Source: Chlorobiaceae bacterium (GTDB taxonomy: Bacteria > Bacteroidota > Ignavibacteria > Ignavibacteriales > Ignavibacteriaceae). Taken from it: a stretch of 64,000 nucleotides of DNA. A program made the position numbers and the translations under genes. This document shows positions 10,896-59,236 of this stretch, piece after piece (position 1 is the first letter of the stretch; every line of letters starts with the position of its first letter). A model generated the notes under the pieces. The model searched no databases. It had not been told where the DNA came from and was given only the letters and a program-made list of their open reading frames with translations. The DNA lies in the NCBI GenBank assembly GCA_013824085.1, contig PNNF01000007.1:1-64000 (forward strand). The letters run 5' to 3'.

Positions 10896-13760
10896 ATGAA
10901 AAAACTATTGTTACTTTTTTTTTCATTTTTTTTAGTTTCTGCTTATCCACAATATTTATCGCAACGAGTTATTGAGACTGATAATGTGAAATATTTATCG
11001 AACACTTTGATTATCAAATTGAAAAATCAAACAGTTCAAACTAAAGGGATGACGAATTCAATTCAATTAATTCAAGCTCAATTAAGCCAATATAATATTT
11101 CAGAAGTAAAACAACTTTTTCCTGCGTTAGAAAATAAACAATACGCGAATGAATTAATTAGATACATTGAAATAAAATATGAAAGCACAATCGATCCACT
11201 TGAACTTGCTTCCAAAATAAAAAAAATGTCCGACATCGAATGGGCAGAACCACGATTTGTTTATGATTTAGCATACACTCCAAACGATCCTTCATTCAGT
11301 CAACAAGCATACTTAAATAGAATTAAAGCTCCTGAAGCTTGGGACGTAACGCGAGGCGATACTACAATTGCAGTTGCTATTATTGATACTGGTGTTGATT
11401 GGGATCATCCAGATTTGGCTGCGAACATCTGGATAAATCGTTTTGAAATTCCAAATAATAATATTGATGACGATAACAATGGTTTCATTGATGACATACG
11501 TGGCTGGGATTTCGGTGGCTTGACTGGAACAGCCGACAATAATCCAATGGAAGATCGACCAGATCATGGAACGCACGTAGCAGGGCTTTCATCAGCAGTT
11601 ACTGACAATGGAGTTGGTGTTGCAAGCATTGGGTTCAGAACAAAAATAATGGCAGTGAAAACTTCTCAAGACAACTTTAGAAATAATCTTGGTCAAGCTT
11701 TGATTGCTTTTGGTTTTGATGGAATAGTTTATGCGGCACAAAATAGAGCAAAGGTCATCAACTGTAGTTGGGGCGGTTCGGGTTATTCTCTTTATGCTCA
11801 AGATGTAATTAATTTTGCAACTCGATTAGGTGCACTTGTTGTCTGTGCTGCAGGGAATAACAATTCTCAAGAAATATTTTATCCATCAGGATACAATAAT
11901 GTTTTGGCTGTTGGTTCAACAACAGTATCAGATGTGAAATCAAGCTTCTCAAATTTTGGAACTTACATCGATGTTATGTCACCAGGCAGCGACATTTATA
12001 ACACATGGCAAAATAATACTTATGCTACATTGAGTGGAACTTCGATGTCTTCTCCAATAGCTGCGGGACTTGCTGCTCTTGTTTTTGCAAGATTTCCAAA
12101 CTTAACTCCTGTTCAAGTAAAGGAAAGAATACGAGTTACATCAGATGATATTTATTCTCTCAACTCTGGAACATTCGCGGGCTTGCTCGGCAAAGGCAGA
12201 ATCAATGCACAGCGAGCAGTTACTGAAACTAATCTTATTTCTGCACGAATAACTGAAACAATTTTTAGTGATGTAGGAACGGGAGATGGTGATGGAATTT
12301 TTGAACCCAATGAATTAATCAACGTTGGAATTAGAGTTACAAGTATTCTCGGACCAACAACAAATTTATCTCTCACATTACAAAGCAGAACAACATCTGC
12401 GACAGTTGTAAATGGCACGTACTCACCTGGATTAATTGCAATTAATGATACAGCAAATAATTTTACGAATCGATTTACATTTAGAATTTCTGCAACAGTT
12501 GCACAAAATGCAGATTTAAGATTTCAAATTATTTTTGCTGATGGCTCTTATTCAGATTTTCAATGGATAAACACAGTTGGCAATCCATCATTTGCAACTC
12601 AATCAGGAAACAACGTAGCTCTAACCATTACGAGTAAAGGAACTTTGGGATTTAATAATTATCCAACAAACAATCAAGGAATTGGATTTAAATATAGAGA
12701 AGGATTAAATAATTTATTTGAAGGTGCATTGATGATTGCTACATCAAACACTCGTGTTAGCGATAATGCGAGGAATGCAACAGGAACCGCACAGAACGCT
12801 GATTTTTCAACGGTACTACCATTTCTATTAAGAATTCCCGGAACAGTTTCTGATGTTCAAGGGTCAACTATTTTTACAGATGCAAGTGCGACAAATCCAA
12901 TTAGAGTAAATGTAAGATTAAACTCATATAGTTTTACAACTGCGGCGCATCAAAATTTTATCATACTGCAATTCAATATTAAAAACAATAATGCAACTGC
13001 AATCTCAAATTTATTTGCGGGACTATTTTTTGATTGGGACATGATTGATGGCAGCGGTGCGAATGATATTGCGTCTTGGGACTCAATAGGAAATTTTGGT
13101 TTTGTAGATCATCTCGGGGCTTCACCAACGCATTTTGTTGGTGCTGCTCTGCTTAGTTCAACTAATTATGGATTTTTCGCGATTGATAATGATCAAGCTG
13201 TGAGCGGAAATCCGTGGGGTATTTATGATGGATTTTCTGATAATGAAAAATGGCTTTCTCTATCAAGCGGAATTGGAAGAAAAAATGCGGGACCTGGTGA
13301 TGTTGGATTTACAGTGTCGGGAGGAAGTTTTAATATAGCAGCAAACGATTCGATTAATGTTGCATTTGCAATTCTTGCCGCCGATAATTTAAATGAACTT
13401 AGAACTTCAGTTGCTAATGCCAGAGCAAGGTATAACACATTGACTGATATAAATGATAATAATATTTTGTTGCCAAAGGAATTTTTTCTTTCACAAAATT
13501 ATCCTAATCCATTTAATCCAACTACAAAAATTAGTTTTCAGTTGCCAGTCACAAGTCACGTATCACTAAAAATTTATGATATACTTGGGAATGAAGTTGC
13601 AAACTTAGTTAATGAAGAGAAAAAATCTGGAATTTATGAATTAGATTTTGATGCAAGAAATTTGACAAGCGGAATTTATTTTTACAGAATCACTGCTCGC
13701 TCATCTGATGATGGAGAAACAAATTTTACTCAAACTAATAAAATGATTTTGCTAAGATAA
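10896..13760 (+). CDS. Secreted subtilisin-like protease with T9SS sorting domain
   Basis: A 954-residue S8 peptidase. An N-terminal signal peptide (MKKLLLLFFSFFLVSAYPQ) is followed by an inhibitor-like prodomain (about 30-125) and the catalytic domain. The catalytic triad is Asp164 (AIIDTGVDWDHPDL), His224 (DHGTHVAG) and Ser383 (SGTSMSSPIAAG), with oxyanion Asn321 (AAGN). A long beta-rich region follows. The C-terminus has FFLSQNYPNPFNPTTKISF and a beta domain ending in TNKMILLR, the type A sorting signal for T9SS export and surface attachment. An AAAGG ribosome site precedes the start. It probably degrades extracellular protein. A terminator follows. Confidence 0.93.
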   Translation: MKKLLLLFFSFFLVSAYPQYLSQRVIETDNVKYLSNTLIIKLKNQTVQTKGMTNSIQLIQAQLSQYNISEVKQLFPALENKQYANELIRYIEIKYESTIDPLELASKIKKMSDIEWAEPRFVYDLAYTPNDPSFSQQAYLNRIKAPEAWDVTRGDTTIAVAIIDTGVDWDHPDLAANIWINRFEIPNNNIDDDNNGFIDDIRGWDFGGLTGTADNNPMEDRPDHGTHVAGLSSAVTDNGVGVASIGFRTKIMAVKTSQDNFRNNLGQALIAFGFDGIVYAAQNRAKVINCSWGGSGYSLYAQDVINFATRLGALVVCAAGNNNSQEIFYPSGYNNVLAVGSTTVSDVKSSFSNFGTYIDVMSPGSDIYNTWQNNTYATLSGTSMSSPIAAGLAALVFARFPNLTPVQVKERIRVTSDDIYSLNSGTFAGLLGKGRINAQRAVTETNLISARITETIFSDVGTGDGDGIFEPNELINVGIRVTSILGPTTNLSLTLQSRTTSATVVNGTYSPGLIAINDTANNFTNRFTFRISATVAQNADLRFQIIFADGSYSDFQWINTVGNPSFATQSGNNVALTITSKGTLGFNNYPTNNQGIGFKYREGLNNLFEGALMIATSNTRVSDNARNATGTAQNADFSTVLPFLLRIPGTVSDVQGSTIFTDASATNPIRVNVRLNSYSFTTAAHQNFIILQFNIKNNNATAISNLFAGLFFDWDMIDGSGANDIASWDSIGNFGFVDHLGASPTHFVGAALLSSTNYGFFAIDNDQAVSGNPWGIYDGFSDNEKWLSLSSGIGRKNAGPGDVGFTVSGGSFNIAANDSINVAFAILAADNLNELRTSVANARARYNTLTDINDNNILLPKEFFLSQNYPNPFNPTTKISFQLPVTSHVSLKIYDILGNEVANLVNEEKKSGIYELDFDARNLTSGIYFYRITARSSDDGETNFTQTNKMILLR

Positions 13761-13773
13761 TTGTTTATTACTG

Positions 13774-13807
13774 CCCCGAAAGTAATGCTAATTGCTTTCG
13801 GGGTTTT
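13774..13807 (+). terminator. Rho-independent terminator of the subtilase gene
   Basis: Arms CCCCGAAAG (13774-13782) and CTTTCGGGG (13795-13803) pair perfectly around a 12-base loop, followed by TTTT. It begins 13 bases after the protease stop codon. Confidence 0.85.
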
Positions 13808-13985: not shown

Positions 13986-16900
13986 TTGAAAAAAATCCTA
14001 AATATATTTTTTCTCAGTTTAACAACTTTTATCTTCTGTGCATCAGCAATTAACCCGCAAAACAATTCTTCAAAAAATTATTCCAATGAAAAAGAGGACA
14101 CTTGGCAACTTGTTAATGCTCCAATAAAGTCATCATTAAAAAATATTATTATGAACGAAAAAGGGGAAGGAATAATTCTCTCTCAGTATTTGATCACTAA
14201 CAAAACTAAAAACTGGGAAACCAAAAAATCTAATTTATTAGTCGATAATATTTATCACATCTCTTTTCTAAACCATAACAATTATTTTGTAGTAAAAGAA
14301 TTGTTTTCAAGCGAGAGTGAACTTTACCATGTGAAAAATGGTAATTGGAAATTGAAGTACCATCCATTTGCTAACCAAATCGATGCTATTCATGCGATTA
14401 GTGAAAATCTTATTTGGATTGCTGGTTTTTCTGAAGTGGCACTATTAAAGGGCGATAGTTGGGAACGCATTAAATTACCTACGCCGATTTTTTCGGCAAA
14501 AAAAATTTTTGGTAATAAAAAAAAACAAATGTGGCTATTAACTAATTCGGGAGTGCTTTATTTTTATGATGGCATAAATTGGAAACAACACTTAACAAAA
14601 CAAAAAATTATTGATGTACATTTTAAGGATGTAAACGATGTTTATGCATTATCAAAAAATTCTATTTATCGAATTGAAAATCTAAAAGAAAAAGTTTTAC
14701 TCACTAATGAAATCTTATCGAACGTAAAAGGCATTTTTTCCGTATCAGAAAATGATATTAAACTAATTGGAAACAATGGACTATTGCTGAGTTATAAAAA
14801 TAAAAGCTTAAACAAAATTTTGCTTCCGACTAATGAGGATTTGAATGCGATTTATCTAAATGATGGGCTTGGATATATCGTTGGTGAGAATGGAACAATA
14901 CTAACAAATAAGAAGAATAGATATTCTAAGGAACCTTCAAATCGATTTGGTTTTAATGAAAAAAAAATCGATTTACTTGCAAGAGAATCAAATGATGAAT
15001 ATGGAGTCGCGATAAATGATTTTAATGGAGATGGATTGAATGATATTTATGTAGTAAGAATATTTGAACCAAATCGCTTTTACATAAACAATTCTTCATT
15101 CGATTTGATCAAAAAAAAAACAGAAGTCAACTTCATTGAAGATGCATTAGAGAGAAATGTCTCTGGGTCATCCAATTTATATAAAGATGATATTAACAAA
15201 CAACTTGAGCTTGGCGTTGGAAGTGGTGATATAGACAATGACAATGATCAAGATTTATATATCTGTGCACTTAACGGAACAAATAATCTCTATCTAAATA
15301 ATGGCTTCGGATATTTTAGAAATGTATCCAATCAATCTAACCGTGCTACTGATAGTATTGAGCGAACAAATTCATCCGTCTTTGCAGATGTCGATAACGA
15401 CGGCGACTTGGATCTTTTTGTCGCCAATGAATTCAGCACCAACAGATTATTCTTAAACAATGGCGCAGGCTTTTTTAATGACGTTACTAAAGAAGCTGGA
15501 CTAAGCACTAATTTCGGTGGAATGTGCGCCGCATTTGGTGATATTGATGGTGATGGCGATCAAGATTTATTCGTTAGTAATTGGTACTCCGGAAATTTTC
15601 TTTTTCGAAATGAGTCAACAAAAGAAGAAGTTAAATTTGTCGATATTTCTGAAATTGCAAATGTAAAAGGAAAAGAATTTGCAAAGAGTAATGGAGTTGT
15701 TTTCGGGGACTATGATAACGATGGAGATCTCGATATTTTTGTCGCTAATAGAAAAACTTCTAATCGTTTATACAACAATAATGGGAATGGAATTTTCTCC
15801 GATGTCACTAAAGAGACTATTGGACTTGATTCGCTGCAAAGTTACGGAGTAAGTTTTGCAGATTTTAATCTCGATGGTTACATCGATTTATTTGTTGCGA
15901 ATGTAGGTGCTAACAAACTTTACAAAAATGATAAAGGAGAAAGATTCATTGATATTAGCAATGAAGTTGGGATAGGAAGAATTGGCTACTTTACAGGCAC
16001 AGCAATCGGTGATATTGACAATGATGGTGATATTGATCTCTATGTAGCTTGTTATATAAATAATAATTCGCTTCTTTTTATAAACAACACTGAGGCAAAA
16101 TCATTCATAAAAATTAAAGTAAAAGGGACAATCTCAAATCGTGATGCAGTTGGAGCAAAAATATTTTTATATGAACATGGCCATTTGGGTGAAAAAAAAT
16201 ATTTGGCGGGTTTCAGAGAAATTCAATCAGGACAAGGTTACGCGTCGCATAATTCGTATGAAGCAATTTTTGGTGTAGATGAGAAAAAAAAATATGATGC
16301 GCTTATTGTTTTTCCAGCAAGTGGTATCAAAAAAGAAACAAATAATTTAACATCAGGAAAAACCTATTTAATTGAAGAAGAAGTTGGGAATGAAAGAGCA
16401 AAAACTCTTTATTCTAAATGGGTTTTAAGTACAATAAATAATTTTGAGAATCAAACCAAAGGAATGATTATTCTCTTCCTTATTGGGCTTCTAATACTTT
16501 CATCATTAATTGGAGTGAAGCGTTATCGTTGGAATAAAAAACTAATCCTAACAATCTTTTTCTTACTGCTAATTTTTTATAGCAGTTATATCTTTTTTAC
16601 TTTCGAATTGGATTGGCGGTCAACCCTAAGCTTGTTGATTGTAATTATTGTTTCTGTAATAATCATTCATCTTCTCTTTGAAATAAAAACTGCAATGAAA
16701 TTATCACAAATAGAAAAACAGAACACTCGTGACGCAATTGCACGCGACTTGCATGACGATCTTGCTTCATCTTTAAGCAGTGGGGTTATCTATGCTGAGT
16801 TTCTTAAACGTAACAAATCGCATTGGGGTGAGGAAGAAAAATATTTACTCCAAAGAATTAATAAAGTTTTGTTGGAAGCTTCAGAGGCGGTTACGGAAAT

Positions 16901-17363
16901 TGTATGGGCAGTTTCACCTTCTCACGACAAGCTAGAAGATTTAATAGTTCGATTAAGAACACTCGTAATCGAAAATTGTAAAACGAGTAAAATCCAATAC
17001 AAGATTGATAATCAAATCGCTGATCGTAATTTGATAATTAGCAATGAGATTAGAAAAAATTATTATTTAATCATAAAAGAATGTCTTGCAAATTCGATAA
17101 AACATTCAAACGCCTCTTTAATAAAGCTTACATTTGAATTATTATACAATCAACTTATAATTACTTTTGAGGACAATGGAGATGGCTTCACATATCTAAC
17201 AAACGCTGACGGAACAATCATTGTAAAAAAAATTAACAATGACTTGCGCGGAAATGGATTGAAAAATATTCATAAACGTGCAAATATTATTGGAGCAAAA
17301 ATAGAGATTGAATCTGAATTGGGAATCGGAACTAAAATTATCATTTCAAAAAAAATAACTTAA
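13986..17363 (+). CDS. VCBS/ASPIC-propeller sensor fused to NarX/LytS-type histidine kinase
   Basis: A 1125-residue fusion of an extracytoplasmic beta-propeller with a histidine kinase. The TTG start is accepted because it begins a clear signal peptide (MKKILNIFFLSLTTFIFC) and no ATG precedes it. Residues of about 40-310 carry propeller-like blades. Residues of about 330-690 hold repeated FG-GAP/VCBS calcium-type motifs (DIDNDGDQDLF-like, DVDNDGDLDLFVANE). An ASPIC/UnbV-like domain follows near 706-795. Three hydrophobic helices lie near 827-846, 853-873 and 880-900. The cytoplasmic HisKA_3 domain has its phospho-acceptor His at 923 (IARDLHDDLASSLSS), and the HATPase has RGNGLKNIHKRA. The LuxR-type regulator follows 59 bases downstream and is probably its partner. 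The ligand is unknown; a cell-surface polysaccharide or protein is plausible. Confidence 0.88.
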   Translation: MKKILNIFFLSLTTFIFCASAINPQNNSSKNYSNEKEDTWQLVNAPIKSSLKNIIMNEKGEGIILSQYLITNKTKNWETKKSNLLVDNIYHISFLNHNNYFVVKELFSSESELYHVKNGNWKLKYHPFANQIDAIHAISENLIWIAGFSEVALLKGDSWERIKLPTPIFSAKKIFGNKKKQMWLLTNSGVLYFYDGINWKQHLTKQKIIDVHFKDVNDVYALSKNSIYRIENLKEKVLLTNEILSNVKGIFSVSENDIKLIGNNGLLLSYKNKSLNKILLPTNEDLNAIYLNDGLGYIVGENGTILTNKKNRYSKEPSNRFGFNEKKIDLLARESNDEYGVAINDFNGDGLNDIYVVRIFEPNRFYINNSSFDLIKKKTEVNFIEDALERNVSGSSNLYKDDINKQLELGVGSGDIDNDNDQDLYICALNGTNNLYLNNGFGYFRNVSNQSNRATDSIERTNSSVFADVDNDGDLDLFVANEFSTNRLFLNNGAGFFNDVTKEAGLSTNFGGMCAAFGDIDGDGDQDLFVSNWYSGNFLFRNESTKEEVKFVDISEIANVKGKEFAKSNGVVFGDYDNDGDLDIFVANRKTSNRLYNNNGNGIFSDVTKETIGLDSLQSYGVSFADFNLDGYIDLFVANVGANKLYKNDKGERFIDISNEVGIGRIGYFTGTAIGDIDNDGDIDLYVACYINNNSLLFINNTEAKSFIKIKVKGTISNRDAVGAKIFLYEHGHLGEKKYLAGFREIQSGQGYASHNSYEAIFGVDEKKKYDALIVFPASGIKKETNNLTSGKTYLIEEEVGNERAKTLYSKWVLSTINNFENQTKGMIILFLIGLLILSSLIGVKRYRWNKKLILTIFFLLLIFYSSYIFFTFELDWRSTLSLLIVIIVSVIIIHLLFEIKTAMKLSQIEKQNTRDAIARDLHDDLASSLSSGVIYAEFLKRNKSHWGEEEKYLLQRINKVLLEASEAVTEIVWAVSPSHDKLEDLIVRLRTLVIENCKTSKIQYKIDNQIADRNLIISNEIRKNYYLIIKECLANSIKHSNASLIKLTFELLYNQLIITFEDNGDGFTYLTNADGTIIVKKINNDLRGNGLKNIHKRANIIGAKIEIESELGIGTKIIISKKIT

Positions 17364-17422: not shown

Positions 17423-18055
17423 ATGAAAATAGAAGTAGCAATAATTGAAGACCATAAATTTTTTAGAGAGAGTGTAGCACAATTACTCAACTCTACTGAA
17501 GAATTTCAAACCGTTGGCACATTCGGTTCTGTAGAAGAAGCACTTAGTAAATTAGAATCTGTTCAAGTTATTTTATTAGATATAAATTTACCAGGACTTT
17601 CAGGAATCGAAGGTATTCCATTTCTCAAAAAAAATTTCCCTGAATGTTTGATTATTATGTTAACTGTTTATGATGATAGTAAAAATATTTTTGACGCAAT
17701 CTTAAATGGTGCAGATGGATATATTCTAAAGAGGACTCAACCTATTCGTTTACTCCAATCAATTATGGATGCAGTTGATGGTGGTTGTCCAATGACACCG
17801 ATCATAGCTAAAGAAGCACTAAATCTTTTTAAAAATTATGTTCCACGCAAAAGTGAAAATATTGAAAACCTTTCGAATCGTGAATTAGAAGTATTGAAAA
17901 TGTTGGTAGATGGTTTAAGCAATGATGAAATTGCCGAAAAATTATTTCTTAGTATTCAAACTGTAAGAAATCATATCAGACACATCTATTACAAACTGCA
18001 TGTACATTCAAAATCACAAGCAGTCGTCAAAGCATTAAAAAAGGGAATAGTTTAA
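17423..18055 (+). CDS. NarL/LuxR-family response regulator
   Basis: A 210-residue transcriptional regulator. The receiver domain has the phospho-acceptor in the strand ILLDINLPGLSG near residue 53 and the conserved Lys in GYILKRTQP. A LuxR helix-turn-helix spans about 146-208 (LSNRELEVLKMLVDGLSNDEIAEKL read in two parts). It follows the propeller kinase gene in the same orientation. HisKA_3 kinases characteristically pair with NarL-type regulators, so the pairing is strong by family. Confidence 0.93.
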   Translation: MKIEVAIIEDHKFFRESVAQLLNSTEEFQTVGTFGSVEEALSKLESVQVILLDINLPGLSGIEGIPFLKKNFPECLIIMLTVYDDSKNIFDAILNGADGYILKRTQPIRLLQSIMDAVDGGCPMTPIIAKEALNLFKNYVPRKSENIENLSNRELEVLKMLVDGLSNDEIAEKLFLSIQTVRNHIRHIYYKLHVHSKSQAVVKALKKGIV

Positions 18056-47572: not shown

Positions 47573-49180
47573 ATGCATCTTGTTGAATATAATAATTTAA
47601 TCGAGAGACTTTCTGTTCAAGTTAAGTCGTTTCAAGAGGGCTTCTCTATTCTTTCCCGAGTTAATACTCTGAAAGAGCTTGGCACAAATTTCTCTCATAT
47701 ATTACGCGGTAATTTTTTTATAAGTGATGTAAATATATTTTATAAAAACAATGAATCAACCGCTTGGGATAGCGTTGTCATCAATAATAAAAATTGCATT
47801 AATTGTATCGAGAAGTTAAAAACTTCAGCAGATGCAGAGATACAATATTTCAACGCAAAAGAATTTAGTATAATTGCAACTTTGCCACTTACTGATGGAG
47901 CATTTTGGGGGTTAATAATTGGAAACAAAATTGATAAATCTGAAATAACTGAACTTGATAAAATTACTTTTCAAATGTTTCTTCAGTTATTAGATAATGC
48001 TTACCAATCTTTTATTCATCAACAAAAAGAGAAGCAACTAAATTTTTCATTGAACAATCGAGTTGTGCAACTCAATAGTTTGATTGATACAGGAATTGAA
48101 ATTTCCAAACTTCGTCAGACTTCTTCATTGCTCGAACTTGCATTGGAAAGAGCCGCAGCGCTTGCAAATGCTGCTCGCGGTGCACTTCAAATGTTTTCTG
48201 ATGATACACTCATATCTGAAATTGGTTTTCCCGAACAGTCAGATATTAAGAAAGTTTTTGCATCAGAAAAAAAAATTGAGACTTACGTTGAATTCAAAAG
48301 TGTAAAATATCTTTTCACTCTTTCAGATAAAGAGAGTAGAAAAGGAATTGTTGATTTTGACCAAACCGACGAAGTGCTGCTTTCTGCTTTTGCACGACAA
48401 GTATTAGCTTCAATAGAAAATGAACATCTACACAAAGAAGCTCTTGATAATGAAAGAATGCACCAAGAAATTGAGATGGCAGCAACAATTCAAAGAAGAA
48501 TAATTCCACAAGAGCTTCCAAATATTGATGGATATGATCTTGCGGGGATTAATATTCCTTCGTTAGAAATTGGCGGCGACTATTATGACGTTACAAAATT
48601 AAAAGATGGAAGATACCTCATCATCATTGCTGATGTAGCGGGAAAAGGCTTTGCTTCTGGTCTATTAGTAAATACATTAAACGCCTCGCTCAATGCTTAC
48701 GTCGAAAAAGATTTCAAATTAACTGATATAGCAAGTAGATTAAATAAAATTATTTACAAAGCTTCTACTCCCGAAAAATATATTACCGGTTTTATTGCTA
48801 TTCTTGATCCAAATTCCGGAACAATTGAATACTTAAATGCAGGACACAATCCTATACTTTATTCCTCAAATGGAAATTTATCTAAACTCGATAAAGGCGG
48901 TTTAGCTTTTGGGATGTTCGATTTTGAACTTCCCTACCAAAGTGATTTTATACAAATAAAACCCGGCGAAAAAATCCTTTTCTATACCGATGGAATTACT
49001 GAAGCGATGGATGAGAATGATGTTGAATATTCTGATCAAAGACTTGAAAGTTTTTTTTTAGATAATGAAATCACAAAAGCAAAAACATTTATTTCAAGCC
49101 TGATCTCAGATGTGAAAAAACATACTGCGGATACTCTGCAGAGTGATGATATAACTGCTCTTTATTTAAGAAGAGAATAA
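47573..49180 (+). CDS. GAF-domain SpoIIE-type PP2C phosphatase
   Basis: A 535-residue soluble phosphatase. Two GAF-like sensor modules span about 20-150 and 165-285. A coiled linker (NERMHQEIEMAATIQRRIIP) leads to the PP2C domain from about 300, with the metal-binding Asp motif GGDYYD at 334-339 and the ADVAGKGFASGLL and YTDGITEAMDE segments. It should dephosphorylate the STAS antagonist encoded just upstream, closing the partner-switch cycle. The sensed signal is unknown. A likely terminal gene of this sub-operon. Confidence 0.9.
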   Translation: MHLVEYNNLIERLSVQVKSFQEGFSILSRVNTLKELGTNFSHILRGNFFISDVNIFYKNNESTAWDSVVINNKNCINCIEKLKTSADAEIQYFNAKEFSIIATLPLTDGAFWGLIIGNKIDKSEITELDKITFQMFLQLLDNAYQSFIHQQKEKQLNFSLNNRVVQLNSLIDTGIEISKLRQTSSLLELALERAAALANAARGALQMFSDDTLISEIGFPEQSDIKKVFASEKKIETYVEFKSVKYLFTLSDKESRKGIVDFDQTDEVLLSAFARQVLASIENEHLHKEALDNERMHQEIEMAATIQRRIIPQELPNIDGYDLAGINIPSLEIGGDYYDVTKLKDGRYLIIIADVAGKGFASGLLVNTLNASLNAYVEKDFKLTDIASRLNKIIYKASTPEKYITGFIAILDPNSGTIEYLNAGHNPILYSSNGNLSKLDKGGLAFGMFDFELPYQSDFIQIKPGEKILFYTDGITEAMDENDVEYSDQRLESFFLDNEITKAKTFISSLISDVKKHTADTLQSDDITALYLRRE

Positions 49181-49328
49181 AAAATAAATTGACGATGGCT
49201 TATGGTAATTCAATACTGACACAAAGTAGAAAATCTATAATCAATTGGAGTAAAACAGGAGAATGAAGATTATTTTATTACATCGAGAACCGCAGAGTTA
49301 TTTTTTATCTTTTTTTAGTGAGGGTTTT

Positions 49329-52300
49329 ATGACTTCGATACTTTTTAGATTTGCAACAATTATGTTTCTGTTTCTATTTTCTGTCTCGGCATTTCCTCAA
49401 CAAAAACAAAAGACCGAGGCTAACGCTGATTTAATTGAGTTTACAAATAAGGAAGGTTTGCCCTCTACTAACATTTCTCAAATTGTTCAAACTAATGATG
49501 GCTACATATGGATTTCCGGAATGGAGGGAACTTACAGATTTAACGGATATGAATTTGAAGAAGTTGGGAGAGAATTTGACCTACACAAAATGCAAAATAT
49601 CTATTACGACTCTGAAAAAAATATCCTCTACGCTGCCTCACCCAATAAATTCATAACCTTTAATGGAAAAACTTTTAATGTCTATTCTGAAAAAGAAGGT
49701 TATAGAATAAATGGTTTAGCGGGACAAGTAATTACTTTTATCCAAGCTGATAGCAAAGGAAGAATTTGGATTGGCTCTTCAACTCCTTTTGTCGATAAAA
49801 AATTTAACGGAGGATTAGTAAAATTTGAGAATGGTAAATTTATTGCTTACGATTCTACCAATTTCCCATTAGACAATGCGGACAATTTCATAGAAACTCC
49901 GTATGGTGACCTGATTTTTTCTTCAGTCGGGCGTAATACTCAAACCAACGAAGGTGCATACATTGCCCTATACAAAAACAACACGTTTAAGAAAATTGAC
50001 GAGTCAGTTGGAATTAAACTGCAAAACGCTCAAATATTTAGACAAAATTTTTCAAGCCCTATTGATAAGGACGGCAACACTTGGATAGCATTTTCAGGAA
50101 TATCATCATCGTTTGTAGCTAATCAAAATACTGCAGGTGTGTTAATGTATGACGGAACAAACTTTCAGCAATACACAGATTTTGGAAATAAGTTTAGCCC
50201 TCTTCAAGTTTTCTACAGCAAACAGAATAATAAAATACTCTTAACCACAGCTTTAAGTACTAGTACTGGCAACGAGATGCTAGAATTTAGAGATGAATCA
50301 ATCTTTGAATTTACAGAAGGGAAATGGAAACTTTCCAACATAATAACGAACATTAAAAATATAGTTGATCTAAAAACTGGAAAAATTATTAATGACTTTC
50401 GTTATGCCGGCTCACTATTCCAAAATAAAAATAAATATTTCCCCGAATTATTAATGTTTAGTACTCCAGCACAGTCACGAAGCTCAAAATATCCAAATCA
50501 ATTATTTACAAGAAAAAATAGTAAGTGGGAAAAGTTGGACGCTTTTACTTACTTTTATGCAAGAGAAACGGACGAAGGACAGCTCATAACCACACCAAAA
50601 GGTTTTGGATTCTATATCCCAAACAATTCAAAGATGCTGACCGAAAAGGATGGGATGCTAACATTAGTAAGTAATGGTCTAGGTGACGTCTATTCTGATA
50701 AGAACGGGATTGTCTGGATTTCTTATTCTAACACTCATATCCCAGCCTATGCTCAAACTGTAAGTATTGGAATCAATATTTGGAATGGAAAAAAATTAAG
50801 TTCATATACTGAAAAAGATGGGCTATTAAGCAACATAACTTTCGACTTTTTTCAAGATAGTAAAATGAGAGTCTGGATTCCCACTTCAAAAGGATTGACA
50901 GTAGCTCAAGAAATTTTGAATAGTGAAGGTGAACAAATCTTTAAGTTTAAGAATCTCAAATCAAATTCACGTGAATTTTATAATACATCAAATGTGATGG
51001 AAACTAAGCAAGGTGAAATTTATGCCTGGCAAAATTATGTAAGACCCGAATCTGAAGGATTGATTAAAGCCGATTTTTTCCTCGGAAAGTTTAACGGTGA
51101 AAAATTTATTGAAATAAAATCACCTTTTACCGCTGAGGAAAATAAGAAAAAATATCAATTGTTTAAGCTTATTGAAGATAACGAAGGAAGATTGTGGTTT
51201 ATGGGATTATTCTCAGATAACATTAAAGATATAACTTCGATAAATTCTAAGATAATGATTTATGATGGAAAATCTTGGAATCAACCACCTGAAAGTTGGA
51301 ACATACCCAGCGAGCAAATTCATTTCGTTGGTAAATTAAAAAAGGGAATGTACTTCTTGACTGTCGGTGGTTTTTATCAATTTAACGGAAACAAATTTAT
51401 AAACCTCATTGATAGTGTAAGCTCAACTGCTGACTTTCGAATATTAAAAGGTGCAAGTGTAGCTGGGACAATGACTGATATTCGGGCAAGTGAAAGACTT
51501 TACATTCGACTTCGAAATTTGGGGCTTGCAATTTTTGATGGAACTAATCTCAATTTCTACACAAAAAAAGATGGTCTCCCTTCAACTAATCTTTATAATC
51601 CAATAATCGATGCAAAAGAGAATTTGTATTTTCATTTTCCTTCGGGTGTATTGCGGATAAAAGGAGATAATTTCCAAACTTATTATGATGATGAGAATAT
51701 AATAACGGGTGGACCTGTCGCCTCTTCTTTGGATGTTGATGGAAATCTTGTTGCATTTTATAATGGAGGTGGTTTATACATCAGAAAAGTAGAAGAGCAG
51801 AGTTATCCTTTAAAAATTTCTTCTGTAATTGTAAATAAACAATATTACTATTATGATTATCCGAAAGAGTTTAAACACTTTGAAAATTCGTTCGTGTTTA
51901 ATTATACAGCATTAAATTATAAAGATCCGAAACAAACTAGTTATGAGCACTTCTTGGAAGGCGTCGATAAAGAATGGTCCCGCCCTTCAATTCTTCCTTT
52001 TGTTGAATATCAAAATCTTCCTCCTGGAAAATATACTTTTAGAGTAAGAGGAATAACTTCTAACGGAATGAAAACCAACGAAGAGAATTATTCGTTTACG
52101 GTACACTCGCCTTGGTGGCTTACTTGGTGGGCTTACGGAATTTATTTTATTGGCTTTGTTGGTTCACTCGGAATGCTTAGAAAATTTGAACTAACTAAAC
52201 GAAAGGAAAGAGAAGATAAAAGATTACTCGCTGCAGAAAATGCTCGTAAGTCAAAAGAATTAGACGATGCAAGACTACTTCAACACTCGATGTTGCCTAA

Positions 52301-52964
52301 AGAACTTCCACAATTGCCACATCTCGATATTGCAGTCTATATGAAAACAGCAACAGAAGTTGGCGGCGACTATTATGATTTTAACGTTCATATCGATGGA
52401 ACATTAACTGTAATTCTTGGAGATGCTACAGGACACGGAATGCAATCTGGGATGATGGTTTCTATAATGAAATCGCTTTTTATGTCTGACAGAACAAGTA
52501 TGGAAATAAAACCATTTTTTGAAAATACAAGTATGGCACTAAAAGATATGCAACTTGGAAGATTGATGATGGCGTTAACTTGTGTGCAGATAAAACCTGA
52601 TAGAATAATAACAACAAACGCAGGAATGCCACCTTTATTTATTTACAGAAACTATTCGCAAACGTTAGAGGAAGTGGTGATAAATAATATGCCACTCGGA
52701 GCAATGAAAGGAATAGTTTATGATGTGAAAGAAATAAAGATCGAAAAAGGCGATACAATATTGATGATGAGCGATGGATTTGCAGAACTAAAAAATGAAA
52801 ATGACGAATTGTATAGCTACAAGCGAGCCGGAAACAGTTTTGAAGAGTTTGCAAAAAAAGAACCAGAAGAGATAGTAAGATTATTGAGTGAAGAAGGAAA
52901 GCGTTGGTCAAATAATAGAGAACCTGAAGATGATATAACATTTGTAGTAATTAAAATAAAATAA
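49329..52964 (+). CDS. Propeller-Y_Y_Y transmembrane sensor with SpoIIE-type PP2C output
   Basis: A 1211-residue transmembrane sensor phosphatase. A signal peptide (MTSILFRFATIMFLFLFSVS) precedes a long propeller region (about 45-820) with two-component-propeller blades such as DGYIWISGMEGTYRF and KGRIWIGSST. A Y_Y_Y-like domain follows (about 830-925, ending LPPGKYTFRVRG), then a membrane helix near 930-955 (WWLTWWAYGIYFIGFVGSLG), a coiled linker and a PP2C domain with GGDYYDF at 1012-1018. The ATG at 49329 has GAGGG just upstream and is preferred to an ATG at 49263. Such propellers usually end in histidine kinases, so the phosphatase output is unusual. It likely passes an extracellular signal to STAS proteins. 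Confidence 0.88.
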   Translation: MTSILFRFATIMFLFLFSVSAFPQQKQKTEANADLIEFTNKEGLPSTNISQIVQTNDGYIWISGMEGTYRFNGYEFEEVGREFDLHKMQNIYYDSEKNILYAASPNKFITFNGKTFNVYSEKEGYRINGLAGQVITFIQADSKGRIWIGSSTPFVDKKFNGGLVKFENGKFIAYDSTNFPLDNADNFIETPYGDLIFSSVGRNTQTNEGAYIALYKNNTFKKIDESVGIKLQNAQIFRQNFSSPIDKDGNTWIAFSGISSSFVANQNTAGVLMYDGTNFQQYTDFGNKFSPLQVFYSKQNNKILLTTALSTSTGNEMLEFRDESIFEFTEGKWKLSNIITNIKNIVDLKTGKIINDFRYAGSLFQNKNKYFPELLMFSTPAQSRSSKYPNQLFTRKNSKWEKLDAFTYFYARETDEGQLITTPKGFGFYIPNNSKMLTEKDGMLTLVSNGLGDVYSDKNGIVWISYSNTHIPAYAQTVSIGINIWNGKKLSSYTEKDGLLSNITFDFFQDSKMRVWIPTSKGLTVAQEILNSEGEQIFKFKNLKSNSREFYNTSNVMETKQGEIYAWQNYVRPESEGLIKADFFLGKFNGEKFIEIKSPFTAEENKKKYQLFKLIEDNEGRLWFMGLFSDNIKDITSINSKIMIYDGKSWNQPPESWNIPSEQIHFVGKLKKGMYFLTVGGFYQFNGNKFINLIDSVSSTADFRILKGASVAGTMTDIRASERLYIRLRNLGLAIFDGTNLNFYTKKDGLPSTNLYNPIIDAKENLYFHFPSGVLRIKGDNFQTYYDDENIITGGPVASSLDVDGNLVAFYNGGGLYIRKVEEQSYPLKISSVIVNKQYYYYDYPKEFKHFENSFVFNYTALNYKDPKQTSYEHFLEGVDKEWSRPSILPFVEYQNLPPGKYTFRVRGITSNGMKTNEENYSFTVHSPWWLTWWAYGIYFIGFVGSLGMLRKFELTKRKEREDKRLLAAENARKSKELDDARLLQHSMLPKELPQLPHLDIAVYMKTATEVGGDYYDFNVHIDGTLTVILGDATGHGMQSGMMVSIMKSLFMSDRTSMEIKPFFENTSMALKDMQLGRLMMALTCVQIKPDRIITTNAGMPPLFIYRNYSQTLEEVVINNMPLGAMKGIVYDVKEIKIEKGDTILMMSDGFAELKNENDELYSYKRAGNSFEEFAKKEPEEIVRLLSEEGKRWSNNREPEDDITFVVIKIK

Positions 52965-52975
52965 AAAATATTTCA

Positions 52976-53720
52976 AAAAAAAAAATGTTTTGTTCATTAC
53001 TCCGTAGGAGTAAAATATTTGTAACTAAGTGATAACGATGAAATACTAACCCCTTTAGGGGTGACCTATTTGTAGCAATTTGTCGATAAAAATTTTTTGA
53101 TTTCAGATTAACGATTAACGAATGATGATTTTAGATTTTTTTTAAGATGCCTAAGGCATTGCACGTTTAAAAAAAATGTTTTGTTCATTACTCCGTAGGA
53201 GTAAAATATTTGTAGAAAAATGATAATGATAAAATAATAACCCCTTTAGGGGTGACCTATTTGTAGCTTGATATTTTTTGATTTCAGATTAGCGATTAAC
53301 GAATGATGATTTTAGATTTTTTTTAAGATGCCGAAGGCATTGCACGTTTACAAAAAAATGTTTTGTTCATTACTCCGTAGGAGTAAAATATTTGTAGAAA
53401 AATGATAATGATAAAATAACAACCCCTTTAGGGGTGACCTATTTGTAGCTAAATGATAACGATGAAATAATAACCCCTTTAGGGGTGACCTATTTGTAGC
53501 AATTTGTCGATAAAAATTTTTTGATTTCAGATTAACGAACAACGAATGATGATTTTAGATTTTTTTTAAGATGCCGAAGGCATTGAACGTTTAAAAAATA
53601 ATGTTTTGTTCATTACTCCGTAGGAGTAAAATATTTGTAGAAAAATGATAATGATGAAATAATAACCCCTTTAGGGGTGACCTATTTGTAGCAATTTGTC
53701 GATAAAAATTAAATAAAATA
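52976..53720. repeat. Array of palindromic repeat units (REP/MITE-like)
   Basis: Four units of about 180-240 bp each carry three short palindromes. A: ACTCCGTAGGAGT at 52998, 53190, 53372 and 53615. B: ACCCCTTTAGGGGT at 53049, 53240, 53422, 53473 and 53665 (a duplicated B in unit 3). C: ATGCC-TAA/GAA-GGCAT at 53147, 53328 and 53571. A and B are each followed by a TATTTGTAG-like tail, and C by TTGCACGTTTA or a variant. The array ends abruptly in unit 4 just before the 53749 gene's ribosome site. No transposase is nearby. It resembles mobile non-autonomous palindromic repeats. Confidence 0.85.
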
Positions 53721-53748
53721 AACAAAAAAATAATTGAAAGGTGTTTCT

Positions 53749-54114
53749 ATGAAAATTATGGTAGTTGATGATGAAAAGGATATAAAATTATTATTTGAAC
53801 AAAGATTTAAAAAGGAAATAAAATCAGGACAAGTTTCTTTTTTATTCGCTTTTTCGGGAGAGGAGGCGTGTGATTACATTAAATCTAATGGCGTAGTTGA
53901 TATAAAAAGAATTTTATCAGATATAAACATGCCAGGAATGAATGGTTTAGAATTGCTTAAATGGATTAAAGAAAATTATCCAGAACTAAAAGTTGCAATG
54001 ATTACTGCTTATGGTGACCAAAATAATTATAATCAAGCAATCGAATATGGCTGCGATGATTATATGACCAAGCCGATAGATTTTAATCAACTTAAGGGAA
54101 AAGTTTTACAATAA
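53749..54114 (+). CDS. Stand-alone CheY/Spo0F-like receiver protein
   Basis: A 121-residue single receiver domain. Conserved acidic pair (VVDDEK), phospho-acceptor Asp58 (LSDINMPGMNG), Thr in ITAYGD and Lys in MTKPIDF are present. The ATG at 53749 has AAAGGTG upstream; the in-frame TTG at 53734 lies in that site. Lacking an output domain, it may be a phosphorelay intermediate between the eight-GAF kinase (46 bases downstream) and the receiver-PP2C at 59237, with whose receiver it shares visible similarity. Confidence 0.87.
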   Translation: MKIMVVDDEKDIKLLFEQRFKKEIKSGQVSFLFAFSGEEACDYIKSNGVVDIKRILSDINMPGMNGLELLKWIKENYPELKVAMITAYGDQNNYNQAIEYGCDDYMTKPIDFNQLKGKVLQ

Positions 54115-54160
54115 TTATTCTTGAGGAATCAATCTATAAATTCAAAAAAATGAGTGAGCA

Positions 54161-57100
54161 ATGACAGCGATTAAATCTGAACGAGTTACTATCAAAAAAG
54201 AAAATGAAATTTTAAAAAAGCAGTTAGCGCAAAGAGAAGCCGAACTAGCGATAATAAACAGCGTTGGTGAAGCGATGTCTAAACAGCTAGACGTTAATAC
54301 TGTAACGAAAATTGTTGGAGATAAAGTTAGAGAAATATTTTTTGCTGAAGTTACTGAAATACTCCTGCTTGATCATGAAACCGAAATGATCCATTTGCCA
54401 TATTCCTATTCTAATGGATACCAGACTTATGAAGCTTTTAAGTTAGGCGAAGGTTTAACTTCTAAAGTTATTAATTCCAGAAAGCCGCTTCACCTTAATA
54501 CGCTTGAAGAGCAAACAAAGAGTGGGGGATTAATCCAATCAGACGAAGATAAAACGGAATCATATATCGGAGCCCCCATCATTTTCAATGATTTGGTGCT
54601 TGGTGTTGTAAGCGTTCAGAGCTATCAGAAAAATGTCTTTGATGAAAACAATGTAAAACTTCTTACAACTCTTTCTACAAGCATGGGAGTAGCATTACAG
54701 AATGCTAAGCTATTTGAAGAATCAAAAAGACTCCTTAAGATTACCGAACAACGCTCAGCCGAACTCTCGATAATAAACAGCGTTGGTGAAGCTATGTCTA
54801 AACAATTGGACGTTAATACAGTTACGAAAATTGTTGGTGATAAAGTTAGAGAAATATTTGCAGCCGAGGTTACTGAAATATTGTTATTGAACGAATTTAC
54901 TAATACGATAAATGTCCCTTATTCCTATTACAACAGCTATCAAACCGTTGAGCCTTTCGAATTGGGGGCTGGGCTAACTTCAAAAATTATTTACTCGCGT
55001 AAACCACTTATGCTATCATCGCAGATTGATCAAAATCAAGAAGGAGCAATTACTGATGTAAACGTAGGGGAAGCTGACTTAACCGAATCATATCTTGGTG
55101 TCCCGATTTTATTCAATGATAAAATCCTTGGTGTGGTTAGCATCCAGAGTTATCAAAAAAATGCATATAACGATATTGATATCCGTCTGCTTTCAACTCT
55201 CTCAACGAATATGGGAGTAACTTTACAAAATGCAAGACTGTTTGATGAAACCAATCGCTTACTGAAAGAAACAGAACGAAGAACTGCTGAACTTGCTGTA
55301 ATTAATAGTGTGCAAGAAGGATTAGCTAAGGAATTAGATATTCAAAGCATTTATGAATTAGTTGGAGAAAAAATTAGAGAAATTTTTAATGCACAGGTAA
55401 TTGATATTGTAACATATGATAAGACAACCAACTTAATTGAGGACCGGTATACTTTTGAAAAAGGTGACCGTGCCTTGTTGGCTCCCAGACCACTGAAAGG
55501 ATTTAGAAAACATGTAATTGAAACATTAAAACCTCTTGTCATTAATAAAGAAGTTGATAAACAGAGATCAAAATATGATCAAGCAGTAATTGTCGGCAAA
55601 GGTGCAAAATCTGTAGTGTTCGTCCCAATGATTGCAGGTGATGAAGTTACAGGAGTGATTAGTTTACAAAATCTTGACAAAGAAAATGCATTTAGCGATT
55701 CTGATGTAAGATTACTAACAACTCTCAGCAACAGTATGAGCGTTGCACTTGAGAATGCAAGACTGTTTGATGAAACCAATCGCTTACTGAAAGAAACAGA
55801 ACAAAGAACTGCTGAACTTGCTGTAATTAATAGTGTGCAAGAAGGTTTGGCGAAAGAACTAAATATGCTTGGAATTTATGAATTGGTTGGAGAAAAAATT
55901 CGTGAAATTTTTGATGTTCAAGTTATTGATATTGTTACTTACGACAGCAAAACAAATTTAATTGAAGATAGATATGCTTATGAAAAAGGAGATAGAACAT
56001 TACTTGGTCCGCGAGAACCAATTGGTTTCAGAAAAAAAGTTATTGAAACTAAAGAACCAATTTTTATAAATGAGAATATCGATATACATCCTCTCTCTAA
56101 TCCAGTCATAATAGGAGATCCCCCAAAATCTATTGTGTTTGTTCCGATGATATCCGGCGGTGAGTTGAAGGGTATAATAAGTTTACAAAATGTTGATAAA
56201 GAAAATGCGTTTAGTCTATCTGATGTAAAGTTACTTACAACTTTAAGTAACAGTATGAGCGTTGCACTTGAGAATGCAAGACTGTTCGATGAAACCAATC
56301 GCTTACTGAAAGAAACAGAACAACGAACCGCAGAACTTTCAGTAATTAATAGTGTGCAAGAAGGTTTGGCGAAAGAACTTGATTTTAGGGGTATTTATAA
56401 TCTCGTTGGTGATCGACTTTGTAGTCTATTCCCAGATTCACAAACATTAGTCATACGAACTTTTAATCTCGATAAAAGTCTTGAACAATTCCAATTCGCA
56501 ATAGAAAAGGGAATTCGTTTAGAGATAGAACCAAGACCATTAAATTGGGCTAACAGACAACTGTTAATATCAAAACAACCATTGCTAATTAATGAAAACT
56601 ATCTTCAAACTGCAATGAAATATGGCGGAACAGGAGTAACTAAAGGGCTTCCTCCCAAATCAGCAATATTCGTCCCAATGATAGTTGGTGAGATTGTAAA
56701 AGGTTCTATCAGTTTACAAAATGTTGATAGAGAAAATGCTTTCACAGAATCTGACGTTAGATTACTTACTACAGTTACCAATAGTATGAGTGTTGCTCTT
56801 GAAAATGCAAGACTGTTTGATGAAACCAATAAACTTTTAGACGAAACAAAACAACAAGCAATTGAGTTAAGTATTATTAACACTGTTGGTGATGGCTTAG
56901 CTAAACAATTGGACTTTCAATCGATAGTTGATCTTGTTGGAGAAAAAATTATTGAAATATTTAATGCTCACGCAGTAACAGTTTCTACATACAACTCTGT
57001 GGATGAATCAATTCACCATTTATACGCTGTAGAGAAAGGTGAAAGATTTTATTTTGATAAATCTCAGAGTATAGATTCAGATAGAAAAAAAATTATAGAA

Positions 57101-59236
57101 TCAAAAAGTCCATTAATTTTTGGTACAAGTCAAGAAATGATAGAACAGAGCGGGGAAGAAATTCTCGCAGGAAAGATGCCAGAATCATTTATGGGTGTGC
57201 CCATTATTCATAATCAAAAAGTTACCGGAGTAATTACCGTTCAAGACTTGGATAGACAGAATCTTTATCACGAAAAAGAAGTTCGGTTACTCTTGACACT
57301 TGCTTCAAACATGGGAGTTGCTTTAGAAAATGCAAGATTATTTGAAGAGACTAATAGATTATTGAATGAAACACAACAACGAAATGTTGAACTCTCCATC
57401 TTAAATACAATTCAAGAAGGATTAGTAATGGAGATGGATTTTGCAGCAATCATTAAGCTTGTTGGTGATAAATTTAGAGAAGCACTTGGTTTCCAAGATG
57501 TTGGAATAAGATTGTACGATAAAGAAAACGACATACTTCATTTCCCTTATGAGTATGAGCATGGCGAATTATTACATTTAGAATCGGGAAAACCTACTCC
57601 TTTTTCAAAATTAGTTTTAGAATCAAAAAAAATGGTTCTCGTTAAAAAAAATACTGAAGAAGAAGCAGCAAAATTTGGGATTAAAGGAGAAACTACAATT
57701 CCTGGTACCGACCGGAGCAAGTCATTCATCATGGTTCCAATTATTCTCGGCAATGAAGCTAAAGGGCTTATCTTAATAGAAAATTATGAGAGAGAAGATG
57801 CTTTTAGTGAGTCGGACATTAGGCTTTTAACTACTGTTGCTAATAGTATGAGTGTTGCTCTCGAGAATGCAAGATTGTTCAAGGAAACTTTAAGACTACT
57901 TGATGAAAGTAAAAAACGTACAGCAGAGTTAAGCACTGTCAACAGTATTAGTCAAGCTATTGCTGGTCATCTTGAAATTAATCAACTAATTAATCTTGTT
58001 GGCGAAAAAGTTCGTGAACTATTTGCAGCCAATCTTGTCTATGTAGCATTAGTTGATCAAGAAAAAGAAATGATTTATTTCCCTTATGGATATGGAGAAG
58101 ATTATCCACCACTAAAATTAGGCGAAGGACTAACATCGCGCGTAATACTTAATAAATCACCGCTACTGCTAAACAGTGAACTCGGAAGAAAAACTAAAGA
58201 GTTAGGAGTCAAGCGGATTGGAACTCCTTCATCTTCTTATCTTGGCGTACCGATACCAGTTGGTGAAGAGATTATTGGCGTGCTTAGTGTTCAGAGTACA
58301 GAGAAAGAAAATCAATTTAATGAAGATGATATGAGATTGCTCGGAACTATTGCCGCACACGTTGGCATTGCAATAAATAATGCAAATGCTTACGATGAAC
58401 TAAATAAGACTTTACAAAATTTGGAAGCAACTCAAGTGCAATTAATCGCTCAAGAAAAACTTGCTTCACTCGGACAGTTAACTGCTGGAATCGCACATGA
58501 AATAAAAAATCCTCTGAACTTCGTAAATAATTTTTCAGAATTATCAATTGGATTTGTAGATGAGTTAAGAGAAGAGTTCGATAAAATTAGTGACAAATTC
58601 GATAGCGAAGTCTTAAGAGACATGATTGAAATTTTGGATCTACTCAAAGAGAATGCAAAAAAAATTAATGAACATGGGAAAAGAGCTGATAGTATTGTGC
58701 ACAGTATGCTCCAACACTCACGTGGAAAAACTGGCGAAAAACAATTAACAGATATTAATTCATTACTCGACGAAGATATCAATCTTGTTTATCACGGAAT
58801 GCGTGCGCAGGATAACGCTTTTAATATTAAAATTGAAAGAGAATATGATAGCAGCATTAGTGAAATAAATGTAATTCCTCAAGATATAAGTAGAGTATTT
58901 TTGAACATCCTCTCAAACGGATGCTATGAAGCTCATCGAAAAAAAATGGAATTAAAAACAGATCTGCCCGCAACAATAAAAGTTAAAACTTTGGAGACTG
59001 ACAAACACATTGAAGTTCGAGTTAGAGATAACGGTCACGGAATACCAGAAAAAATTAGAGACGATCTCTTTACTCCTTTCTTTACAACCAAGCCCTCTGG
59101 TAAAGGCACAGGATTGGGATTATCTATCAGTTATGATATTGTTGTTAGTGAACATCAAGGCGAACTATTATTTGAAACAGTAGAAGGTGAGTTCACCGAA
59201 TTTATAATTAGAATCCCAAAAAATTTAAAAAACTAA
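54161..59236 (+). CDS. Cytoplasmic histidine kinase with eight tandem GAF domains
   Basis: A 1691-residue sensor kinase without membrane helices. Eight GAF domains begin near residues 30, 204, 379, 553, 727, 901, 1077 and 1255, each opened by a helix like INSVGEAMSKQLD or INSVQEGLAKELD and ended by a GVALENARLFDE-like helix. A coiled-coil linker leads to HisKA with His1446 (TAGIAHEIKNPLNFVNN) and a HATPase with RDNGHGIPEKI and GKGTGLGLS. Linkers between domains 3-5 are nearly identical at DNA level, showing recent duplication. Its stop is directly followed by the ATG of the receiver-PP2C, its probable partner. Ligands of the GAFs are unknown. Confidence 0.93.
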   Translation: MTAIKSERVTIKKENEILKKQLAQREAELAIINSVGEAMSKQLDVNTVTKIVGDKVREIFFAEVTEILLLDHETEMIHLPYSYSNGYQTYEAFKLGEGLTSKVINSRKPLHLNTLEEQTKSGGLIQSDEDKTESYIGAPIIFNDLVLGVVSVQSYQKNVFDENNVKLLTTLSTSMGVALQNAKLFEESKRLLKITEQRSAELSIINSVGEAMSKQLDVNTVTKIVGDKVREIFAAEVTEILLLNEFTNTINVPYSYYNSYQTVEPFELGAGLTSKIIYSRKPLMLSSQIDQNQEGAITDVNVGEADLTESYLGVPILFNDKILGVVSIQSYQKNAYNDIDIRLLSTLSTNMGVTLQNARLFDETNRLLKETERRTAELAVINSVQEGLAKELDIQSIYELVGEKIREIFNAQVIDIVTYDKTTNLIEDRYTFEKGDRALLAPRPLKGFRKHVIETLKPLVINKEVDKQRSKYDQAVIVGKGAKSVVFVPMIAGDEVTGVISLQNLDKENAFSDSDVRLLTTLSNSMSVALENARLFDETNRLLKETEQRTAELAVINSVQEGLAKELNMLGIYELVGEKIREIFDVQVIDIVTYDSKTNLIEDRYAYEKGDRTLLGPREPIGFRKKVIETKEPIFINENIDIHPLSNPVIIGDPPKSIVFVPMISGGELKGIISLQNVDKENAFSLSDVKLLTTLSNSMSVALENARLFDETNRLLKETEQRTAELSVINSVQEGLAKELDFRGIYNLVGDRLCSLFPDSQTLVIRTFNLDKSLEQFQFAIEKGIRLEIEPRPLNWANRQLLISKQPLLINENYLQTAMKYGGTGVTKGLPPKSAIFVPMIVGEIVKGSISLQNVDRENAFTESDVRLLTTVTNSMSVALENARLFDETNKLLDETKQQAIELSIINTVGDGLAKQLDFQSIVDLVGEKIIEIFNAHAVTVSTYNSVDESIHHLYAVEKGERFYFDKSQSIDSDRKKIIESKSPLIFGTSQEMIEQSGEEILAGKMPESFMGVPIIHNQKVTGVITVQDLDRQNLYHEKEVRLLLTLASNMGVALENARLFEETNRLLNETQQRNVELSILNTIQEGLVMEMDFAAIIKLVGDKFREALGFQDVGIRLYDKENDILHFPYEYEHGELLHLESGKPTPFSKLVLESKKMVLVKKNTEEEAAKFGIKGETTIPGTDRSKSFIMVPIILGNEAKGLILIENYEREDAFSESDIRLLTTVANSMSVALENARLFKETLRLLDESKKRTAELSTVNSISQAIAGHLEINQLINLVGEKVRELFAANLVYVALVDQEKEMIYFPYGYGEDYPPLKLGEGLTSRVILNKSPLLLNSELGRKTKELGVKRIGTPSSSYLGVPIPVGEEIIGVLSVQSTEKENQFNEDDMRLLGTIAAHVGIAINNANAYDELNKTLQNLEATQVQLIAQEKLASLGQLTAGIAHEIKNPLNFVNNFSELSIGFVDELREEFDKISDKFDSEVLRDMIEILDLLKENAKKINEHGKRADSIVHSMLQHSRGKTGEKQLTDINSLLDEDINLVYHGMRAQDNAFNIKIEREYDSSISEINVIPQDISRVFLNILSNGCYEAHRKKMELKTDLPATIKVKTLETDKHIEVRVRDNGHGIPEKIRDDLFTPFFTTKPSGKGTGLGLSISYDIVVSEHQGELLFETVEGEFTEFIIRIPKNLKN

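Follow-up and report, generated by a model that had tools for sequence, protein, structure and literature searches.

A CRTAC-type FG-GAP/ASPIC module forms the sensor half of a NarX-type histidine kinase in Ignavibacteria

We describe a membrane histidine kinase in which a CRTAC-type propeller and an ASPIC domain make up the sensor half and the kinase core is of the NarX type (HisKA_3), all within one reading frame, and whose gene adjoins one for a LuxR-type response regulator. The FG-GAP/CRTAC-type fold is known from secreted proteins, e.g. CRTAC1, an animal cartilage protein, and integrin-like propellers; here it would serve as a signaling receptor with a readable output. We consider it likely that the pair constitutes a functional two-component system, an explanation that takes in a ligand-binding propeller face, an ASPIC spacer, phosphotransfer to the regulator and an origin by a swap of sensor modules. 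The window analyzed is a 64,000-nucleotide stretch of a Chlorobiaceae bacterium (contig PNNF01000007.1, positions 1 to 64,000).

Domain architecture of the kinase

The kinase gene (13986..17363, forward strand, as are all features of this locus given below) encodes 1125 aa in a single frame with neither stop nor shift. Its TTG start leads into a clean signal peptide (residues 1-21, 13986..14048) with the hydrophobic N-terminus MKKILNIFFLSLTTFIFCASA. This is followed by a Ycf48/BNR-like propeller (residues ~38-315, 14097..14930), a seven-bladed FG-GAP/VCBS propeller (residues ~332-707, 14979..16106), an ASPIC/UnbV beta domain (residues ~708-797, 16107..16376), three TM helices (residues 826-844, 853-871 and 880-898; 16461..16679), the HisKA_3 dimerisation/phosphoacceptor domain (16728..16922) and the HATPase_c catalytic domain (17064..17348). 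Pfam recovers FG-GAP_3 in 6 stretches (E 1.7e-50), with FG-GAP also matched, and HATPase_c at 1027-1121 (31.9 bits against a cut-off of 26.4), while UnbV_ASPIC at 721-794 (27.2 bits against 23.4) and HisKA_3 at 915-979 (25.9 bits against 24) lie barely over their cut-offs. The ASPIC domain is also seen in the structure model, as are the three hydrophobic helices between it and the kinase core, which a prior sequence-only reading had already proposed. That reading had likewise recognized the FG-GAP repeats and the ASPIC domain as the sensor half of the kinase; it overlooked the additional N-terminal propeller, with which the sensor is a double propeller.

The HisKA_3 domain with its phosphoacceptor H923 (in RDLHDDLAS), invariant in the 27-member family alignment, the HATPase_c domain over the Pfam cut-off and the paired REC-GerE regulator place the protein in the NarX-type HisKA_3 class. 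It is not a NarX or NarQ equivalog, reaching 42.5-45 bits against cut-offs of 553-578, and it falls far under every NCBIfam equivalog cut-off. With NarX/NarL, DesK and LiaS the pair shares the kinase core and the regulator type, whereas the sensor is unrelated. Profile searches of the host genome (2.65 Mb, 98% complete) return this kinase as the only HisKA_3 match and as the only ASPIC match; thus, the organism has no other system of this type.

An AlphaFold2 model computed from 27 sequences (pLDDT 82, pTM 0.69) replaced an earlier one from 5 sequences, which was set aside at pLDDT 57.5. The top solved Foldseek match of the model is CRTAC1 (9etn; E 2.8e-23, TMt 0.70), which is the best PDB match by both sequence profile and fold; after it come the Bacteroides sensors BT4663, BT4673 and BT3049, over ~870 columns, and PorZ. 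The first ~315 residues constitute the second propeller, as indicated by a profile match to Ycf48 chains and by the Foldseek comparison of this part of the model with Ycf48 5ojr (TMt ~0.7). Ycf48 is a photosystem II assembly factor; the N-terminal propeller has its fold in common and matches it weakly in sequence, with no photosystem link. The PSII_BNR profile scores below its cut-off on this propeller in the relatives of the kinase and above it in the class of Ser/Thr kinases with a comparable ectodomain, which is considered further below.

Comparison with known systems

The CRTAC1/ASPIC-UnbV proteins resemble the kinase described here in having a seven-bladed FG-GAP propeller with Ca2+ loops that is followed by ASPIC. 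Those examined lack a kinase and are apparently secreted, whereas the window protein continues into three TM helices and a kinase core; the kinase family further differs from them in the extra N-terminal propeller and in its own invariant blade-edge residues.

A second parallel is offered by the hybrid-system sensors of Bacteroides. BT4663-type sensors consist of two seven-bladed propellers and, C-terminal to them, a beta domain. In BT4663 itself, disaccharides are bound at the entry faces of the propellers, and the Y_Y_Y domain serves as a spacer that takes part in dimerisation (PMC5121618). The modeled ectodomain, with two propellers and ASPIC, follows the same domain order as the periplasmic part of BT4663, BT4673 and BT3049, i.e. 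a double propeller and a beta domain ahead of the membrane. The model superimposes on BT4663 with an rmsd >20 A, and the likeness is therefore best read as one of fold and domain order and not of arrangement, as the orientation of domains in the model (pTM 0.69) is untrustworthy. The window kinase differs from the Bacteroides hybrid and Reg_prop sensors in using other propeller families and three TM helices; its regulator is encoded by a separate gene, whereas in the hybrid systems receiver and DNA-binding domain are part of the kinase polypeptide. Neither Reg_prop nor Y_Y_Y matches the window kinase at E 0.1 in Pfam, though both match control kinases. Bacterial integrin-type propellers were retrieved in an earlier study without a membrane segment, and a kinase is unmentioned there (PMC3192720). 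Our search of the open literature, with subscription papers and domain-architecture databases outside its scope, found no publication on an FG-GAP/ASPIC-HisKA_3 architecture.

The cognate regulator and gene neighborhoods

The gene after the kinase (17423..18055) encodes a 210 aa response regulator with Response_reg and GerE domains in Pfam, i.e. of the LuxR/NarL type, as the sequence-only reading had held. All relatives for which flanking sequence is available have a regulator gene adjacent to that of the kinase, and the regulators are 44-67% identical. No other neighbor is conserved across all loci, and a promoter scan did no better than on shuffled sequences. Directly upstream of the kinase gene lies a subtilase gene (10896-13760) whose product bears a T9SS sorting tail; a strong terminator-like hairpin at its end (13773..13804; 14 pairs followed by a T-rich stretch) separates it from the kinase gene.

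Such neighborhoods invite a reading in which a surface protein or a client of type IX secretion is what the sensor monitors, with the regulator acting on the adjoining gene for a secreted protein, here the subtilase. A same-strand neighbor with a T9SS sorting tail is present at 7/12 Ignavibacterial loci under a strict script (9/12 by eye), though the proteins concerned are of differing kinds (subtilase, cytochrome, DUF7619, kelch, Ig). The association is, however, unspecific: among 40 control kinases of the same order, matched by their kinase half only, 13 have a T9SS-tailed neighbor as well (Fisher p 0.18). Moreover, the window subtilase is followed by the strong hairpin, and the Flavobacterial and Saprospiraceae members have different neighbors. 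We accordingly dropped the T9SS neighbor as a specific clue, treating it as a general feature of kinases of this class, and regard a secretion monitor as improbable, though it fares best among the alternatives to a two-component receptor for a ligand of the FG-GAP propeller. At three loci (L057:12958-21191, L053:13867-18315 and L032:4577-8413) the kinase-regulator pair adjoins a gene for a very long DUF7619 protein with a T9SS tail. The host genome encodes 61 T9SS sorting tails, as against a single HisKA_3 kinase and a single ASPIC domain.

Calcium loops and a candidate ligand face on the FG-GAP propeller

The FG-GAP propeller contains seven DxDxDG-type Ca2+ loops, starting at D345, D415, D468, D519, D575, D626 and D676, and hence seven blades. 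In each of the seven, the Asp residues at the first and ninth positions are invariant in 27/27 family members. The sequence-only reading had suggested that the protein senses a calcium state; the loading of the loops would itself be the signal, with the propeller folding or stiffening as periplasmic Ca2+ rises. The presence of seven complete or near-complete loops with such conservation would suit this idea, but the same Asp positions are nearly invariant in FG-GAP/ASPIC proteins that have no kinase, as would be expected of structural sites, and the residues peculiar to the kinase family appear to lie at the blade edge opposite the loops. Since the loops are kept about equally where there is no kinase, their pattern of conservation suggests that Ca2+ in the propeller is structural and not the signal; calcium sensing as the main mechanism was demoted on this ground and appears unlikely, more so than secretion monitoring.

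The kinase-specific residues point instead to a ligand of the propeller. The 27 sensors of the family were set against 59 proteins that do not belong to the kinase-linked set, and a position was defined as family-specific if at least 92% conserved within the family and shared by at most 25% of the proteins outside it. Twenty such positions were found between residues 337 and 711, of which 17 lie at offsets -8, -7, -6, +14 or +15, counted from the Asp that opens a Ca2+ loop, against an expectation of 1.9 (hypergeometric 4e-17; Fisher 1e-14 against other conserved positions, with sequence kinship ignored in both). These offsets were picked after inspection of the data, and the clustering stays far below chance even when the choice of 5 from ~50 offsets is amply allowed for. 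In the model the offsets fall where strand A begins and strand B ends, two places that, going by strand order, would lie on the same blade edge, opposite the Ca2+-bearing A-B loop.

The residues at +14/+15 are L429, E482, W533, R589, V640/G641 and Y690, and those at -8/-6 are R460, N462, K567, N569, Y668 and T670. Further family-invariant residues assigned to the candidate face are Y339, L409 and G511. The residues at these offsets vary from blade to blade and, thus, do not represent a repeat consensus. Sensors of the other kinase classes (GHKL, GAF-HisKA and Ser/Thr) have different residues at these places. We propose that the invariant edge residues form one exposed face that is a candidate binding site for a single ligand shared by the family. 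The earlier suggestion of sensing an extracellular polymer is weakened by this pattern: the sensor is probably periplasmic, and a face that does not vary within the family is more suggestive of a single constant ligand than of diverse polymers. As the candidate residues are few and can be named, the question of what the propeller binds is testable with purified domains.

Phyletic distribution and origin of the fusion

Full-length relatives are found in 16/164 genomes of the order and also on contigs from Flavobacteriaceae, Saprospiraceae and Chitinophagaceae; named relatives within the order belong to Ignavibacteriales and Melioribacteraceae. Among the nearest relatives, 4 genomes encode the protein in full (39-43% identity). 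When 396 genomes of the phylum were sampled, 5 had the protein, all within this order, indicating a patchy spread. As to the objection considered in the sequence-only reading, that the architecture might be a common one, it is recurrent but patchy. A scan of genome contigs with the single sequence found no relatives, and an alignment-based search recovered them. These relatives confirm that the fusion of propeller and kinase is real: that a frameshift or assembly join near 16400 merely linked a CRTAC-type gene to a kinase gene, as might be suspected because each half also occurs separately in other proteins, is ruled out for practical purposes by the unbroken frame and by relatives at 32-44% identity that align from end to end in many independent assemblies.

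For this genuine fusion, the phylogenetic position of its parts was examined separately. In the kinase tree, 21 family members and three Reg_prop/Y_Y_Y kinases (L137-L139) form one group (99/99), and the regulator tree recovers the identical 24 (99/88), with the family itself together at 81/83. Reg_prop-Y_Y_Y-HisKA_3 kinases of the same order are thus the phylogenetic neighbors of the window kinase and regulator, and all of the 9 control kinases (out of 40) that were scanned with Pfam show the Reg_prop-Y_Y_Y-HisKA_3-HATPase architecture. The sensor tree, a quick run with SH-aLRT values only and long branches, places the HisKA_3-linked sensors in one clade (99), which joins the sensors linked to GHKL, GAF-HisKA and Ser/Thr kinases (93), apart from 58 non-kinase FG-GAP/ASPIC proteins; this label rests on a Pfam scan of part of the 58, in which the members with long C-terminal tails carried no kinase. 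The T9SS protein L100 is an exception, placed with the kinase-linked sensors on a long branch. With the kinase and regulator grouping with Reg_prop systems and the sensor with other FG-GAP/ASPIC sensors, the simplest reading is a swap of sensors, presumably with a CRTAC-type module placed on a NarX-type kinase and its regulator.

Related FG-GAP/ASPIC sensor modules are linked to different output enzymes and regulators: GHKL kinases with NtrC-like regulators, GAF-HisKA kinases, and Hanks Ser/Thr kinases with a GAF-sigma54 activator. One sensor type has thus been joined to different kinase classes in neighboring lineages. Hanks Ser/Thr kinases with a like ectodomain occur in family f2 of the order (L044:5546-9088, L046:7258-10815, L047:7409-10999 and L049:6098-9517); in L044 the gene after the kinase encodes a GAF-sigma54 activator that has no receiver domain. 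Beyond Bacteroidota, on contigs labeled as Calditrichota and Actinomycetota, FG-GAP/ASPIC kinases have GHKL-type or GAF-HisKA outputs (L065:1-4024, L069:36-2930 and L085:8833-12093), and an NtrC-like regulator follows the kinase in L065. Tentatively, and with somewhat less than even confidence in the combined claim, we suggest that the CRTAC-type FG-GAP/ASPIC unit is a general exchangeable sensor module of bacteria, used on HisKA_3, GHKL with NtrC, GAF-HisKA and Hanks Ser/Thr kinases, and that its HisKA_3 branch recognizes one constant ligand throughout Bacteroidota via the ring of residues opposite the Ca2+ loops. If this is true, the CRTAC fold would have a role as a receptor in bacteria, and one open to testing.

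Mechanistic interpretation

In the proposed two-component system, the kinase would be anchored in the inner membrane with its sensor, i.e. the Ycf48-like propeller, the Ca2+-stabilized seven-bladed FG-GAP propeller and ASPIC, in the periplasm. The ligand is predicted to bind the face of the FG-GAP propeller that bears the D-A and B-C loops. ASPIC may act in the manner of the Y_Y_Y spacer of the Bacteroides hybrid systems, such that a change in the dimer would be relayed by the three TM helices to the HisKA_3 and HATPase domains. The adjacent LuxR-type regulator would then be phosphorylated by the kinase, which would change transcription. Such a system would have arisen by the joining of a CRTAC/FG-GAP sensor module to a kinase and regulator of NarX type, a pair that has Reg_prop/Y_Y_Y sensors elsewhere in the lineage.

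Another signaling cluster in the window

A second group of signaling genes is located at 47573-63303, where four SpoIIE-type phosphatase genes surround a gene for a 1691 aa GAF-repeat histidine kinase (54161-59236). The phosphatases have the architectures SpoIIE (47573-49180), Reg_prop-Y_Y_Y-SpoIIE (49263-52964), REC-SpoIIE (59237-60394) and SnoaL-SpoIIE (60391-63303). The cluster thus includes a propeller sensor placed on a phosphatase, and it is possibly a partner-switching hub.
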